DNA from: Actinomycetota bacterium
Lineage (GTDB): Bacteria; Actinomycetota; Actinomycetes; Nanopelagicales; Nanopelagicaceae
Assembly (NCBI GenBank): GCA_009697555.1
Contig: WLQV01000055.1
Span: forward strand, 1-7,341
Direction: 5' to 3'
Length of the DNA stretch: 7,341 bases
In this document: positions 1,332-7,071 of the stretch, one piece after another
Layout of the letters: the number at the start of each line of letters is the position of its first letter
Position numbering within the stretch: position 1 is the stretch's first letter
Notes under the pieces: model-generated
The model's database searches: none
What the model saw: only the letters and a program-made list of their open reading frames with translations
What the model was told of the DNA's origin: nothing
Translations under genes and position numbers: made by a program

Positions 1332-1407
1332 TGGTGCGCCTGAAGGGATTCGAACCCCTAACCTTCTGATCCGTAGTCAGATGCTCTATCCGTTGAGCTA
1401 CAGGCGC
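1332..1407 (-). tRNA. tRNA-Arg (anticodon ACG)
   Basis: On the minus strand a full cloverleaf folds: a 7-bp acceptor stem GCGCCTG/CAGGCGC, a 4-bp D stem GCTC/GAGC, a 5-bp anticodon stem TCTGA/TCAGA with loop CTACGGA, a 5-nt variable region, and a T arm with loop TTCGAAT. The anticodon ACG (1372-1374) reads CGU and, if A34 is deaminated to inosine by TadA, also CGC and CGA. The tRNA body is 73 nt (1335-1407), and the 3' CCA is encoded at 1332-1334, so it need not be added afterwards. It sits between fprA and the metallopeptidase gene, all on one strand. Confidence 0.97.
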
Positions 1408-1451: not shown

Positions 1452-2756
1452 AACCCCTAATTTCACTAATTCTGCGTGATTGGCCACTTTCTTGCGAGGT
1501 TTTCCAAGCGGCGCTCCCGCGGCAACTTCAGCAGCGTTGATGCGCTCCCAAGCAGATTGGTCGATGACTACTTTGCCTGCGAGTAATTCAGTGATGTCCC
1601 CGGCAGACTTTGGTTCTGCTGGCAATTGGCTGATGAGTAAATCAATGACATCACTTGCATCACTCTTATTTGTGCCGATAACTCCTGATGGCCCGCGCTT
1701 TGCCCAACCGACAACATAGAGATTGGTATTAGCAACTGCGCCATTCTCATTACGCACTCGACCTGCCTCGTATGGAATTCCCTCGATTGGCTCTGCTTCA
1801 TAACCAATTGCCGAAATAACTAAGCCGGTTTTTACAGTGCTTCTTTCACCATTTGCAGTGACTTTATCGTTAGAAACTTTATTGTGAGCAAAAGTAACGC
1901 TCTCTACTCTCTCTTGACCAGTTATCTCTTCTGGGGCAAGGAGAAAGCGAAACTCTAAAGTGCGCTCACTTGAATTGCGCCCATTTTCGGCAACATGAAG
2001 CATCGCATCGAGATTGCTTGCAACATGCTTTTCTGCATTTTCACCAACACGAGTGATGGCTTGGTGAATTTCATGAGCATCAATAATCACGTTTGTATGT
2101 TCGAGTTTGGCTAGTTCTCGTAACTCTGGTGCAGTGAATGCAGCATGTTCGGGGCCGCGGCGTGCACAGAGAATAACGTGGCGAATCTTTGATTGGTGAA
2201 ATGTACCCAAGGCGTGATCCGCAGTATCGGTGGGATCAAGTTCAATAGGATTAAGTGCCAGCATTCGCGCAACATCCATTGCAACATTTCCTGCACCAAT
2301 TACTACTGCGGTATCTGTATTGAGATCAATTTGATGACCGGCGAAATCTGGATGAGCGTTGTACCAAGGTACAAATTCTGCGGAAGAATGAGAACCTACT
2401 AAATGCTCACCCGGGATTCCCAGCTTTTTACCGATGGATGAACCAGTTGCAATAATTACCGCGTCATAACGCGCCCTTAGATCATCTGTAGATAAGTCTT
2501 TACCTAACTCAACATTGCCAAATAGGCGAAATCCCTCGCTCTTGGCAATCTTTTCAAAGACTTTTGAAACGCTCTTTATTTTGGGGTGGTCTGGTGCAAC
2601 ACCACTGCGCACCAAACCCCATGGAGTAGGAAGGCGTTCAAACATGTCTATCGCAAAGGTGCGCTCATCTGATGCCGAATTTTGAAGCGCTTGTGCAGCA
2701 AAGTACCCAGCCGGTCCGGCACCGACTATTGCAATGGAGTATCTCTTCTGCGCCAT
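1446..2756 (-). CDS. fprA: Ferredoxin/adrenodoxin-type NADP+ reductase (FprA family)
   Basis: This 436-aa FAD flavoenzyme moves electrons between NADPH and a ferredoxin. In actinobacteria such enzymes commonly supply ferredoxin-dependent enzymes such as cytochromes P450. It belongs to the adrenodoxin-reductase/FprA type, not the plant-type FNR. The N-terminal FAD-binding motif is VGAGPAGYFAA at 11-21, followed by the family block PTPWGLVRSGVAPDHPKIK at 43-61. The NADP-binding Rossmann motif is VIGAGNVAMDVAR at 152-164, and ARRGP at 198-202 holds the arginine pair that recognises the 2'-phosphate of NADP. GWAKRGPSGVIGTNKSDA at 350-367 is the conserved C-terminal FAD/NADP segment. Length is close to mycobacterial FprA and there is no fused N-terminal ferredoxin domain. 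The cytoplasmic enzyme's redox partner is not in this window. The ATG has no clear Shine-Dalgarno; a -10 hexamer 6 nt upstream suggests a leaderless mRNA. Confidence 0.96.
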   Translation of the reverse strand: MAQKRYSIAIVGAGPAGYFAAQALQNSASDERTFAIDMFERLPTPWGLVRSGVAPDHPKIKSVSKVFEKIAKSEGFRLFGNVELGKDLSTDDLRARYDAVIIATGSSIGKKLGIPGEHLVGSHSSAEFVPWYNAHPDFAGHQIDLNTDTAVVIGAGNVAMDVARMLALNPIELDPTDTADHALGTFHQSKIRHVILCARRGPEHAAFTAPELRELAKLEHTNVIIDAHEIHQAITRVGENAEKHVASNLDAMLHVAENGRNSSERTLEFRFLLAPEEITGQERVESVTFAHNKVSNDKVTANGERSTVKTGLVISAIGYEAEPIEGIPYEAGRVRNENGAVANTNLYVVGWAKRGPSGVIGTNKSDASDVIDLLISQLPAEPKSAGDITELLAGKVVIDQSAWERINAAEVAAGAPLGKPRKKVANHAELVKLGVL

Positions 2757-2762
2757 AAGAGA

Positions 2763-2768
2763 AGTTTA
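2763..2768 (-). promoter_or_regulatory. Leaderless -10 element of fprA
   Basis: TAAACT on the minus strand matches the actinobacterial TAnnnT -10 consensus and ends exactly 6 nt before the fprA ATG, so transcription would begin at or next to the start codon. The best-placed -35 would overlap the first codons of the divergent plus-strand gene and is poor (CATAGT). The whole divergent gap is only 32 bp (2757-2788), so the two promoters must overlap. Confidence 0.5.
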
Positions 2769-2770
2769 CT

Positions 2771-2779
2771 AGGTAAAGT
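2771..2779 (+). promoter_or_regulatory. Candidate RBS / -10 for the UxaA-like gene
   Basis: AGGTAAAGT lies 9 nt before the ATG at 2789. AGGTAAAG could act as a weak Shine-Dalgarno. Alternatively TAAAGT (2774-2779) fits the TAnnnT -10 consensus and would give a leader of only about 3 nt. The sequence does not decide between the two. I find no good -35. Confidence 0.3.
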
Positions 2780-2788
2780 TGCCGCACT

Positions 2789-3820
2789 ATGGGTATGAGA
2801 GATCTCTTTCACCGAGGCAAAGATTCAACACCAGAATATGTTGGCTATTCCAACAATATTCGTGCCGGAATCCGAGCAAATAATTTCGTAATTTCGCTTT
2901 CGACATGTGCCGATGAGGTTGCAGTAAGAATCAGTCGCACAGACACACTCTTTACAGTGATTGAGTACAGCAGTGAGATCGCAGATGCGCTGGCATCTAT
3001 TGTCAGCCATCCCAATACCGCTAGTGCCTTTCTTTTGAGTTATGGCTGTGAGTTGAAATCTTCACGTGAGTTCGCCGTCGAACTACGAGGACTCAATCCC
3101 AACATTGAATTCTTGGAGTTAGAGAATGGAAATCTCTCAGAATTTGCAATGACTATGGGTCCTGCGGTTATGCAGGAGCTTAAATTTCAAGCAAGTCCTG
3201 GGCTTGAAAATATTGAATCGCCATTAATTGCGGTAATTGCGCCACAGAGCGATGAGAAGATCGCAGCAGTTCTACAGGTATTGCGCGACGCCAAAATTGA
3301 AGTCCGTGAAATTTTCGCCTCTACTAATCAGAGAACAGCACTGGTCGACGCTGCGAAATTCGGCGCCCTCGCAATCGTGAATTTCACCGATGGAAATGAC
3401 TATCCATCAGGAACCTACATTTCACCGGTCATTAATGTCGCAAGCAACTCCGATTTTCACCAAAGTATTGCAGCGGACTTTGATTTAGGAGTTGGAGCCA
3501 CACCAGATGAAATTCTGCTGCGTGTTCAAGAGACTATAGGGCGATCTCCAACAGCAAGTGAAGTTGCGCGATCTTTTGAACCCTTTGGAGCATTGCTTGA
3601 TTCATCAGAGAAGCTTCAGGTTCTCAATGCAGTACTAAGCAACTTTGCTCGAGATCTAGCCCAAAATTTCTCCACTATTGATGCAAAGATTGCAATCGCT
3701 ACCGGTTCTGAGATTAATGAAATAGCGCAGTGCGCAAGTGACGGCTATGAAATCTTTGCAGTTACAGATCATGGTTCATTATTTGGATTAGCCGAAGCGC
3801 TCACTAAGAGATTGCAGTAA
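2789..3820 (+). CDS. Divergent, shortened UxaA/GarD-like (altronate/galactarate dehydratase family) protein
   Basis: This 343-aa protein has no signal peptide or membrane segment, so it is probably cytoplasmic. Two blocks resemble the UxaA/GarD dehydratases, which remove water from sugar acids. Residues 19-47 (GY, RAGIRANN, STCADEVA) match the family pattern GYxRxDGRxGxRNxxxxxPTxxCAnEVA, with Cys40 at the conserved cysteine position. Residues 192-258 (GALAIVNFTDGNDYPSG, ISPVINVASNS, then TASE) match the family segment FTTGRGTPxG...PIxPVIKVxxNs...TkSE. The central part differs: the family's GLECGGSD block appears as VIAPQSD near 149-155, and only about 45 residues separate it from the FTTGRG-like block, where typical members have well over 100. 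About 85 residues after TASE have no family counterpart I recognise. Dehydratase activity is therefore doubtful, and a repurposed or regulatory fold is possible. Family membership is inferred from remembered motifs. An ATG at 2795 is an alternative start. Confidence 0.72.
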   Translation: MGMRDLFHRGKDSTPEYVGYSNNIRAGIRANNFVISLSTCADEVAVRISRTDTLFTVIEYSSEIADALASIVSHPNTASAFLLSYGCELKSSREFAVELRGLNPNIEFLELENGNLSEFAMTMGPAVMQELKFQASPGLENIESPLIAVIAPQSDEKIAAVLQVLRDAKIEVREIFASTNQRTALVDAAKFGALAIVNFTDGNDYPSGTYISPVINVASNSDFHQSIAADFDLGVGATPDEILLRVQETIGRSPTASEVARSFEPFGALLDSSEKLQVLNAVLSNFARDLAQNFSTIDAKIAIATGSEINEIAQCASDGYEIFAVTDHGSLFGLAEALTKRLQ

Positions 3821-3861
3821 AAAGAGAACTCCCCGAGCAACCAGTGGCTGCCCGGGGAGTT
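3819..3861 (-). terminator. Intrinsic terminator of the sugar-transport operon, possibly bidirectional
   Basis: AACTCCCCG (3827-3835) and CGGGGAGTT (3853-3861) form a perfect 9-bp GC-rich stem around a 17-nt loop. On the minus strand the stem is followed by CTCTTTTTA, a U-rich tail that marks termination after the binding-protein gene. The five T residues (3819-3823) overlap the stop codon of the convergent plus-strand gene. On the plus strand the stem is followed by ATTACC, so termination there should be weaker. Confidence 0.85.
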
Positions 3862-3876
3862 ATTACCCTCGGTAAA

Positions 3877-5196
3877 TTACTTGCTGAGCAGTGCCTTAGA
3901 AGCTGCAGTACATACACGACCAAGTTCATCGTAGATGTTACGTGCTGCTTTTTCAGCGGTCTGTGATCCAGTAAGTGCCTTCTGGAATTCTGGAAGGCAG
4001 GTATTGGATACCCAGTTGGTGTAGCCAGGGAATGTGTATTCAGTGTCATAAACACCGATTGCCTTAAGTGCAACTTTGTACTGTGGTGTTGCACCTACAT
4101 AAGCATCTTCAGATGCTGATGCAGCTGTTGGGAAGTAGCCAGTCTCTTTCAAGAAAGTTACTTGAGCTGGAGCCTCACCCATGTAAGAGATCCATTCGAA
4201 ACCAGCATCTGGGTTCTTTGTCGATGCAAAGATGCCGTGTGCAAGTGGTGAGGTGAAGCCTGTGCTTGCACCTGCTCCTGCTGGCATTGCTGCTGTTTCA
4301 ACTTGAGTGCCGTACTTAAAGTAACCAGCTACTTGTACGAAGCTTCCAGTGTGGTGCATAACCATCGCTGCTTTTCCAGTTTGGAAGTTAGCCATGATTT
4401 GGGCGAAACCATCGGATGTAACAGTTGGGACAACAGCCTTATCTTTAACTGAGAGGTTAACCCAGAAAGAGACTGCATCGCGAACTGTTTCGAACTTCAC
4501 TTGACGCAGCAAAGTACGTGGGTTGATGAATGGACCATTCCATGCGTGAATCATCTTTGGAATGAAGCCACCACCACCGGAGCCACCGCGCATTGCAAAG
4601 CCATACTGGTTCTTGCTTGGGTTAGTCAGAGCAATTGCAGTTTGGCGGAACTCTTCAAGTGTGGCAGGAGGCTTTGTAATGCCAGCTGCATCAAAGAGAT
4701 CCTTGCGGTAGTACATCCAGTCAATAAATGTGAACCATGGGACACCGTATGACTTACCGCGCTCTGTAAATGCACCAATAGTGGTCGATACGCCATCTTT
4801 CGCTGGCCAATTCTTAACCTGAGCAGTGATGTCCTTAAGGCCACCAATCTTTCTCATGTCTTTGAAGCGTGCTGCAGTCACCATGAGAGTATCTGGACCA
4901 GACTTTGCAGCTGTTGCAGCAATGTACTTAGTCATCCAGTCATCATTAGTAACTGTTGTGATGTCGAGTGTGATTGCAGGAGACTTCACTTTGAAAGCAT
5001 CTACAACTTTGGCAAATCCTGCGCGCTCACCATCAGATGTGTAGTGATGCCAGAAAGAGATCTTGCCTGAACCCTTTGGGTTCGTCTTTGCAGCTGCGGC
5101 ACTTGCGGATGCTGTTCCCGCAACTCCTGCTGCAGAAGTCATCGCGCCGAGCTTTAGAAAAGTTCTACGCGAAAGACTTGAAATCAAATTTTGCAT
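3877..5196 (-). CDS. ABC transporter extracellular sugar-binding protein (family 1, Tat-exported)
   Basis: This 439-aa protein captures a sugar outside the membrane and delivers it to permeases A and B. The N-terminus carries a twin-arginine motif SRRTFLK at 9-15, a weak hydrophobic stretch at about 16-34, and an alanine-rich cleavage region near 30-36. This indicates Tat export in a folded state. The mature part begins with ISFWHHYT (46-53) and includes GVPWFTFIDWMYYRKDLFDAAG (151-172) and NFQTGKAAMVMHHTGSF (270-286), typical of MalE/UgpB-like family 1 binding proteins. The tryptophans and tyrosines suit carbohydrate stacking. No lipobox cysteine is present near the signal peptide. The only cysteines are 400 and 429, a possible disulfide. 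The gene is last in the cluster, behind its own promoter. The substrate cannot be named; oligosaccharides, glycosides or glycerol-phosphate types are all possible in this family. Confidence 0.94.
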   Translation of the reverse strand: MQNLISSLSRRTFLKLGAMTSAAGVAGTASASAAAAKTNPKGSGKISFWHHYTSDGERAGFAKVVDAFKVKSPAITLDITTVTNDDWMTKYIAATAAKSGPDTLMVTAARFKDMRKIGGLKDITAQVKNWPAKDGVSTTIGAFTERGKSYGVPWFTFIDWMYYRKDLFDAAGITKPPATLEEFRQTAIALTNPSKNQYGFAMRGGSGGGGFIPKMIHAWNGPFINPRTLLRQVKFETVRDAVSFWVNLSVKDKAVVPTVTSDGFAQIMANFQTGKAAMVMHHTGSFVQVAGYFKYGTQVETAAMPAGAGASTGFTSPLAHGIFASTKNPDAGFEWISYMGEAPAQVTFLKETGYFPTAASASEDAYVGATPQYKVALKAIGVYDTEYTFPGYTNWVSNTCLPEFQKALTGSQTAEKAARNIYDELGRVCTAASKALLSK

Positions 5197-5302: not shown

Positions 5303-6145
5303 CTACTCTTTTAGGCTGCCCGCGGTGATACCCGCGACCATTTTGCGCCCTACTAGGGCAAAGCCGATAACCACTGGCAGAAGGCTCATAATCGCTGTGG
5401 CGGTTAGCAGCTGCCACGGCAATTGGAATTCGCCGATCATTTCACGCAAACCAACGGGCCAAGTACGAGACTTGTTTGATGAAGTCAACATGATTGCAAA
5501 GAGAACATCGTTCCATGCGGTAATTGCAGTGAGCGTTCCTGTTGCGGCAAGACCTGGCAAGACAAGAGGTAAGGAAATACGCCACATAGCACCAAGGCGC
5601 GAGCAGCCATCAACTCTTGCTGCATTCTCTAGATCAGGAGGCAATGAATCAAAGAATCCCTTCATGAGCCAGATCGTTGCCGGCAATGTGAAAGTTGTAT
5701 AAGCAAAGGTGAGACCAAAATAAGTATCTAGCAAATGGAACTTGTACATCATGATGTAAATAGGTACGAGAAGTAAAACACCTGGGATCAACCGAATAAC
5801 TAAGTAGGAGAGCAATACTCCTTGACGCCCTTTAAATTTTGCACGCGATAAGGCGTAGCCAGCTGCAGTTCCAAGTACCAAACTCAGAAGCACAGTCATG
5901 CTACTTACGATGAGGCTGTTACGAATGAGAACTGGGAAATTAGTATCACGCCAAATATGTGTGTATGCCAAGAAACTAAGGTTTTTAGTAGTGAGCATCG
6001 TTGGGTAACGAGTAATGGAGACTTCCTCACGAAGGGAAACATAGAAAGTCCAAAATAATGGCAAGATTGCAAAGAGAACTAAGCCAGTAATGCCGACATT
6101 GGCCATGTAGTAAGAGAACTTCTTTCGTACCTTTTTAGGCTTCAT
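5303..6145 (-). CDS. Sugar ABC transporter permease B (MalG/UgpE type)
   Basis: From the ATG at 6145 this is a 280-aa inner-membrane subunit with about six hydrophobic segments (roughly 16-37, 77-99, 110-133, 143-162, 197-219, 247-266). The EAA loop that docks with the ATPase is clear at 173-194: ENAARVDGCSRLGAMWRISLPL, with the invariant DG. The C-terminus MVAGITAGSLKE matches the usual (F/Y)VxGLTAGAVKG ending of MalG-like permeases. A TTG at 6151 in the same frame would add MI, but it is only 1 nt from the Shine-Dalgarno. The ATG is 7 nt from it, so I chose the ATG. The gene begins 2 nt after the permease A stop, so the two are translationally coupled and should form a heterodimer. Substrate is unknown. 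Confidence 0.94.
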   Translation of the reverse strand: MKPKKVRKKFSYYMANVGITGLVLFAILPLFWTFYVSLREEVSITRYPTMLTTKNLSFLAYTHIWRDTNFPVLIRNSLIVSSMTVLLSLVLGTAAGYALSRAKFKGRQGVLLSYLVIRLIPGVLLLVPIYIMMYKFHLLDTYFGLTFAYTTFTLPATIWLMKGFFDSLPPDLENAARVDGCSRLGAMWRISLPLVLPGLAATGTLTAITAWNDVLFAIMLTSSNKSRTWPVGLREMIGEFQLPWQLLTATAIMSLLPVVIGFALVGRKMVAGITAGSLKE

Positions 6146-6147
6146 GA

Positions 6148-7071
6148 TCAATCCTCCTTACCAAACTTGGCAAAACGAATGTAGACCATTGCAAAACCTG
6201 CAATTGCAGCGAGGACTAATACCGAAATAGCTGAGGCATAACCAAAGTCATAACCTTGGAATGCTTGGCGGAAGGCATACAACGGAAGAACCAAGGTGCT
6301 ATCTCCTGGTCCACCATTTGTTAGTAGCAACATCAAGGTTGGCGAATTAATAAGGTGAATTACACCTAATAGACCAGAGACAATAAGAACCGGCTTAATC
6401 AGTGGAAGAACTACATATCTAAAGTGTTGAAAAGCACTTGCGCCATCTACCGATGTTGATTCACGCATGTCTTTTGGAATACCTTGAATGCCAGCAAGAA
6501 TAAAGAGCATAAAGAATGGATAGGACGCCCAGAGATCTACGAAGAGCGCACCGAAAATTGCCAGGTGCGGATTGCCCCAAATTCCAACTTCGCCAAATGA
6601 AATCCCTACATCTTTAAGTAACTGGATAATAATTCCAGCATTTGTATCGAGCATAAAGCGCCACATGTATGCAGTTACTACTGGTGGCGTAAACCATGGC
6701 AGAACAACAAGCACACGAATCAAGCCGATGTATTTGCGCTCTTTGCTCAGGAGCATTGCTGCACCTAAACCCAGAAGCATCTGTGATGTGAGGCCGAATG
6801 CAGCAAAAACAAAGGTGTTCTGTAGCGCTGTAATAAATGTGGGATCAGCGAATAAATTCTTAAAGTTCTCAAAGCCGTTGAGGGTTGAGTCCGGACCTTC
6901 TAATAATTTTGTCCGAGTGAAAGCTAAGAAAACACCACGGTATAAGGGATAGAAAATGAAAAGCGCGATCATTAACAAGCTTGGAATGAGAAGGAACCAA
7001 GCAAAGAATCTTCCTTCTAGACCCCGAGCGATAAACGCTAGAGGGCCACGAGTGATGCGTCGCTTGGCCAC
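6148..7071 (-). CDS. Sugar ABC transporter permease A (MalF/UgpA type)
   Basis: This is a 307-aa membrane subunit of the importer. Hydrophobic segments lie at about 23-50, 85-107, 116-138, 171-194, 224-246 and 279-299, giving six helices. That is the short UgpA-like form, without the extra periplasmic domain of E. coli MalF. The cytoplasmic EAA loop is at about 204-225 (ESTSVDGASAFQHFRYVVLPLI), with the DG pair. The TNGGPGDST segment at 251-259, followed by LPLYAFRQAF and GYASA, is typical of this permease family. The start is GTG with no Shine-Dalgarno, but a strong promoter places transcription at or next to it. It is the first gene of the cluster, followed by permease B and the binding protein. 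No ABC ATPase gene accompanies it. Confidence 0.94.
   Translation of the reverse strand: MAKRRITRGPLAFIARGLEGRFFAWFLLIPSLLMIALFIFYPLYRGVFLAFTRTKLLEGPDSTLNGFENFKNLFADPTFITALQNTFVFAAFGLTSQMLLGLGAAMLLSKERKYIGLIRVLVVLPWFTPPVVTAYMWRFMLDTNAGIIIQLLKDVGISFGEVGIWGNPHLAIFGALFVDLWASYPFFMLFILAGIQGIPKDMRESTSVDGASAFQHFRYVVLPLIKPVLIVSGLLGVIHLINSPTLMLLLTNGGPGDSTLVLPLYAFRQAFQGYDFGYASAISVLVLAAIAGFAMVYIRFAKFGKED
6152..6159 (-). promoter_or_regulatory. Strong Shine-Dalgarno deciding the permease B start
   Basis: AAGGAGGA on the minus strand is a near-perfect anti-Shine-Dalgarno complement. It is built into the GKED codons ending permease A and sits just before its TGA. The distance favours the ATG at 6145 over the upstream TTG at 6151. 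It contrasts with the poor or missing ribosome sites of fprA and permease A. Confidence 0.85.

Follow-up and report, generated by a model that had tools for sequence, protein, structure and literature searches.

The window analysed here, that is, the whole stretch of 7,341 nucleotides at positions 1 to 7,341 of contig WLQV01000055.1 from an actinobacterium of the Nanopelagicaceae (assembly GCA_009697555.1), carries at 2789..3820 on the forward strand a gene for an orphan UxaA/GarD-like protein of 343 residues, with an ATG start and no internal stop codon, which lies convergent with the genes of a sugar ATP-binding cassette (ABC) transporter. As judged by profile comparison, this protein, called the long form below, is related to the Pfam families GD_AH_second (E 8.8e-6, 26.3 bits) and GD_AH_C (E 1.2e-4, 22 bits) despite scores below their curated cut-offs of 27.3 and 26.8 bits, and these significant E-values bear out the UxaA/GarD kinship claimed in an earlier note made from this DNA alone. 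The protein had no NCBIfam match at E <= 1, and in the PDB no sequence was matched at E <= 10. Its predicted structure has a GarD-like fold, and the middle domain (residues 142-256) is also similar to receiver and LacI-type domains (VIA list), a likeness that reflects a common arrangement and is thus no evidence of function.

A first protein search returned 15 homologues, 14 of them full-length (P0001-P0013 and P0015; 341-343 residues, 59-94% identity) and one partial (P0014); a profile search then brought in five remoter ones at 30-34% identity (P0016-P0020), P0016 being the long-form protein of genome G087. Among genomes, 151 of the family were searched first and then all 296, the order-level set consisting of the same 296. 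Five of them contain the long form: that of the window (G000, the sole genome searched from its genus), G087 and G099 from genus g3, and G211 and G212 from genus g16, the G212 copy being cut by a contig end. There were 37 matches at E <= 1e-25, and the other 32 reach no further than query position 281; their frames, of 262-308 residues, have the size to be expected of the compact subunit described below. Among the stretches matched in viral contigs, no relative was present. The window clade and G211 have a short basic N-terminal extension (MGMRDLFHRGK..., window 2789-2830) that G087 and G099 do not have; it could be a membrane-contacting helix, and in the predicted structure of the window protein the model confidence is below 50 at residues 1-13.

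In terms of sequence, the nearest relatives of the long form are compact subunits of about 270 residues (251-273 in 36 loci), encoded beside a large UxaA subunit and named in databases 'altronate dehydratase', 'altronate dehydratase large subunit' or 'UxaA family hydrolase'. Residues 15-272 of the window protein were aligned by hhalign with the compact-subunit profile at 99.9% probability (E 6.9e-33), and, from this alignment and the tree, residues 15-262 (2831..3574, forward strand) are assigned as a region homologous to the compact subunit, made up of GD_AH_second and a shortened Rossmann-like domain. In that tree, computed without P0002, P0004, P0005, P0009, P0014 and the G212 protein, 18 long forms group in a single clade (100/99), which is joined with 36 compact proteins, with a warning from the program about long branches. 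In all three loci fully inspected, the compact gene is flanked by a SAF-domain gene on one side and by the large UxaA gene on the other. One of these operons belongs to the genome of the window (G000:C75; L034:1962-4197), where the SAF (1962-2240), compact (2237-3043) and large (3040-4197) genes overlap, and the large gene is followed by a convergent gene for a mannitol-dehydrogenase-type reductase and by UxaC. The large subunit matches GarD (6u7l) at E 1.4e-59, and large UxaA subunits in the family have 384-417 residues, one being cut by a contig end.

The earlier note had reckoned that the section between the two recognisable blocks of the window protein was more than 100 residues short. In the large subunit of the same genome, approximately 149 residues separate the cysteine of the GLECGGSD block from FTTGRG, compared with approximately 50 between VIAPQSD and FTDGND in the window protein, so that about 100 are missing and the gap is real. 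The earlier note also asked whether orthologues keep the same deletion; the homologues are either equal in length or can be aligned without the stretch, which is missing from 12 of the 12 aligned. To explain the gap as a deletion in this protein is too simple, since the closest relatives are already compact and the shortfall is common to the compact subunit and not new in the window protein. The proposal that VIAPQSD (residues 149-155; 3233..3253, forward strand) is a degenerate GLECGGSD, which is likely, depends on the route of alignment: the compact and large profiles align (E 5.3e-21) with VGLDLS of the compact form on VLGLECGG, and VIAPQSD of the long form sits on VGLDLS, whereas the direct alignment of the long form with the large profile and the MAFFT alignment place VIAPQSD downstream of the GLECGGSD block. 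Downstream lies a late block conserved among the homologues, at residues 199-234 (3383..3490, forward strand; FTDGNDYPSGTYISPVINVASNSDFHQSIAADFDLG). A full-length catalytic domain would have spoken against the view of the protein as reduced. The alignments show instead that the GLECGGSD-type motif is absent and that the catalytic domain is about 100 residues short. The window protein is a variant of the UxaA/GarD superfamily that fails defining features of the enzymes.

The metal ligands point in the same direction. Watanabe and colleagues (PMC6336799) report that UxaA/GarD enzymes, with the exception of sulfolactate sulfo-lyase, have four conserved cysteines, which they propose as iron ligands. 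The four cysteines that E. coli UxaA (positions 132, 166, 199 and 264) and GarD have in common are taken here as those four and are numbered C1 to C4. In one locus per genome with a compact match, 36 in total and all from this family (G008, G017, G023, G035, G053, G080, G092, G149, G233 and G241 are not in this count), the compact proteins have C1-C3 and lack C4 (36/36), and the large proteins, one of them contig-cut, have C4 and none of C1-C3 at the aligned columns (36/36). This division suggests a composite metal site shared by the two subunits, and the iron site of the parent enzyme would therefore form between them; what comes to light is a three-gene dehydratase with its proposed iron ligands divided between two subunits. 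According to alignment with E. coli UxaA and GarD, the window protein has kept C1 (Cys40; 2906..2908, forward strand) and C3 (Cys87, in GCE; 3047..3049, forward strand) and is without C2 and C4, the latter being absent under every alignment. Both C1 and C3 are kept in 19 of the 23 long forms and both are lost in three (P0020, G099 and G211); in G212, C3 is lost and the position of C1 falls off the contig.

The C-terminus (residues 263-343; 3575..3817, forward strand), regarded in the earlier note as novel, is likely a remnant of the N-terminal GD_AH_second domain of the large subunit, and the protein would then amount to a compact subunit plus that domain, the large catalytic domain being gone. 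Of the 23 long-form tails (the partial P0014 is excluded, as it is from the conservation counts over 23 long forms), 16 scored above the best of 483 decoys, 460 shuffled and 23 reversed, when compared with the N-terminal domains of 35 large subunits; the best tail had 12.5 bits and the best decoy 5.4. With the compact-subunit domain there was no signal, the best tail reaching 2.5 bits and the best decoy 3.6. The tail profile was aligned by hhalign with the large N-terminal domain over 110 columns at 91% probability, with a score of 42.8 compared with 22.1 or less for 300 column permutations (0/300 as good), 11.2 for the reversed profile and 11.6 for the compact domain. When a hidden Markov model (HMM) of the tail was run on 401 open reading frames (ORFs) from the loci, including 37 large-type and 36 compact proteins, the five long forms came top, followed by 27 consecutive large subunits, the best of which, that of the window's own genome, had E 2.4e-4. 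The same pairing was given, weakly, by BLASTP of the window protein against this large subunit (E 0.061). By eye, NRNSREPL or a similar sequence closes the tail in G087 and its near relatives, resembling KREPAPW just before the catalytic domain of the large subunit, and the order of strands and helices agrees with the large-subunit GD_AH_second domain, by eye in the predicted structure only; the VIA and Foldseek rows are hardly a test of the tail. The apparently novel C-terminus could thus be explained as the fossil of a subunit fusion.

Other sources for the tail were considered. The middle and N-terminal domains of the protein itself gave no signal (hhalign probabilities of 0.2% and 0.3%), and the tail alone reached no Pfam cut-off. 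A PHP domain at the C-terminus (E 0.11 with the whole protein, 0.02 with the tail alone), covering 27 residues and under its cut-off, was attributed to chance, and the matches of tails to FGase (E 0.059) and Gp44-like (E 0.16) were treated in the same way.

Since a fused and shortened gene might be a functionless leftover in slow decay, the constraint on it has to be considered, and this alternative, with which fast divergence relative to the neighbours and the loss of catalytic residues agree, appears very improbable. The frames are open in the genomes read (that of G212 being contig-cut), the 14 full-length homologues keep 341-343 residues at 59-94% identity, and the location is conserved in three genera. 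Between G211 and G212 (L071:5382-6506 and L072:8410-9273), where the long form is 53% identical as against 91% for the binding protein of the transporter and 92% for a permease, the nonsynonymous difference of the long form (pN 0.319) stays below a saturated synonymous one (pS 0.802). Mean identity to the window protein in its clade (14 sequences) is 0.93 at residues 68-140, 0.68 at 141-195 and 0.73 in the tail. Intact frames, a single clade, this well-kept segment and the lost iron ligands uphold the earlier view of a conserved protein with a changed role.

The convergent partner of the long form, at 3877..5196 on the reverse strand, encodes the substrate-binding protein of the sugar ABC transporter, with a likely twin-arginine translocation signal, and is accompanied on that strand by two permease genes identified by profile scan (5303..6151 and 6148..7071). 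In the 56-base gap between the convergent genes, RNA folding places a hairpin at 3827..3861, likely a shared two-way terminator; the segment 3815-3880 folds at -25 kcal/mol (z -4.64), a stability that none of 200 shuffles equals. The long form is convergent with the same transporter in all five long-form genomes, from three genera, across gaps of 31-62 bases, the transporter consisting of the binding protein and two permeases, with the G087 contig ending inside the first permease. At E <= 1e-80 the binding protein occurs in 9 of the 296 genomes, namely the five with a long form and four of genus g12 (L085-L088). In g12 each transporter has one or two genes for enolase-superfamily dehydratases close to it, five in total (two scanned, the others assigned by evident sequence likeness), and in three of the four loci it is also flanked by a FAD_oxidored-type gene (one scanned). 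Taking into account these dehydratase genes, the transporter is likely linked to sugar acids; among the solved relatives of the binding protein are binders of maltose/acarbose, xylo-oligosaccharide, sorbitol and sulfoquinovosyl-glycerol.

The claim of the earlier note that no sugar-acid genes are nearby holds for the window if the transporter is set aside, but fails for two orthologous loci. The G087 long form comes after genes for a short-chain dehydrogenase and an L-rhamnonate-dehydratase-like enolase, the latter under the curated cut-off of that family, with gaps of 39 and 12 bases, and in G099 it comes after SMP-30, DUF4432 and MFS genes, with overlaps, so that both orthologues likely stand in sugar-acid operons. 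As for fprA, whose linkage the earlier note proposed to check, four loci have the relevant flank within their contig; it adjoins the long form in the window only and, according to ORF lists read without a profile search, not in the other three. Linkage is thus supported for the sugar ABC transporter and not for fprA. Beside fprA the window has a tRNA-Arg(acg) gene (1332-1407, reverse strand), and at 108-1268 on the same strand it encodes a likely secreted protein of 386 residues with a HEYGH zinc-peptidase motif, seen by eye, and a marginal Peptidase_M4 match (E 0.064).

The compact-subunit ancestry, together with the canonical large subunit encoded in the window genome and in G099, would also suit a role in regulating or stabilising the canonical three-subunit dehydratase, with the long form acting as an alternative compact subunit for a large or SAF subunit encoded elsewhere. 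We consider this improbable: the large subunit was not found in G087 (92% complete), G211 (76%) or G212 (65%), hence the long form is likely independent of it; and the gene stands by the transporter and not by uxaA.

A different possibility is that the long form is a working sugar-acid lyase, isomerase or epimerase, with a chemistry changed through C40 and C87 or free of metal, which replaces or supplements the enolase-type dehydratases of other loci. The joint retention of the two cysteines in 19 of 23 long forms agrees with it, as do the position of the G087 gene after a sugar-acid-dehydratase-like gene and the 27 positions invariant in the 23 long forms (G212 being left out where contig-cut), which include R29, H74, E88, H224, D232 and E258. 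It is nevertheless rather unlikely, given that C2 and C4 are absent, that the catalytic domain is short of about 100 residues and that P0020, G099 and G211 have lost both remaining cysteines.

The explanation that we favour, with a probability of roughly one half, is that the long form binds a sugar acid without catalysis and acts as a partner of the sugar ABC transporter encoded next to it. Its N-terminal two thirds match the compact subunit of a likely three-subunit altronate-type dehydratase, its tail is likely a remnant of the large subunit, and it bears two of the four cysteines. Its likely origin is a join of the compact and large genes, which are adjacent and overlapping, after which the catalytic domain of the large subunit would have been lost. 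The fused tail may stand in for the partner subunit, giving a self-contained pseudo-dimer; in GarD, the second domain reportedly forms the dimer interface. The retained polar residues R29, H74, E88, H224, D232 and E258 may still bind a sugar acid or its product, and retention of ligand binding is plausible; with no iron site, the sugar acid would be bound but not dehydrated, dehydratase activity being likely absent. The long form might then signal or modulate how the transported compound is taken up and catabolised, a role deduced from linkage only. The fuller scenario, in which a split-iron dehydratase became, by fusion and loss of the catalytic domain, an iron-free sugar-acid receptor that has two second domains as an internal pseudo-dimer and couples the filling of the ABC transporter to catabolism without a DNA-binding domain, is tentative, and we doubt that it holds in full. 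If a receptor it is, an enzyme subunit would have been recruited to sugar-acid uptake in small-genome actinobacteria. In titles and abstract beginnings of the open-licence papers searched, nothing appeared on the long-form protein or on cysteines split between UxaA subunits.

Several observations weigh against this explanation. Beside the transporter of genus g12 no long form was seen (4/4 genomes), and convergent genes have no common promoter. The tail matches are individually weak (12.5 bits at best, 7 of 23 tails not above the best decoy, pairwise E 0.061), the 27 large subunits matched by the tail HMM are related to each other, and with that HMM E. coli UxaA reaches only E 1.6 and GarD is not among the best 60 rows. 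The division of cysteines is made less clean by four of the 36 large proteins (G065, G075, G113 and G125), in which a cysteine stands two residues beyond the C1 column, and the two cysteines kept in the clade of the window could themselves bind a metal. Lastly, the long form diverges faster than its transporter, which also fits a relaxed constraint.

When compared with known systems, the window protein is closest to the compact UxaA subunit, with which it shares GD_AH_second, a shortened Rossmann-like domain without the catalytic stretch of about 100 residues, and the GCE, HPN, PVIN and DFDL blocks. Unlike it, the compact subunit possesses C1-C3 and about 270 residues and is encoded between the SAF and large-subunit genes, whereas in the window protein C2 is missing, the chain is extended at the N-terminus and by an extra C-terminal domain, and the gene stands alone, with no SAF or large-subunit gene among the six window ORFs scanned. 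The large UxaA subunit resembles it in that its N-terminal domain likely matches the C-terminus of the window protein, and differs in its catalytic GD_AH_C domain with C4, of which the window protein has only a shortened version that comes from the compact half. E. coli GarD (6u7l) and UxaA, in contrast, unite in one chain an N-terminal SAF-type domain, the four shared cysteines and a complete GD_AH_C domain with the CGGSD motif.
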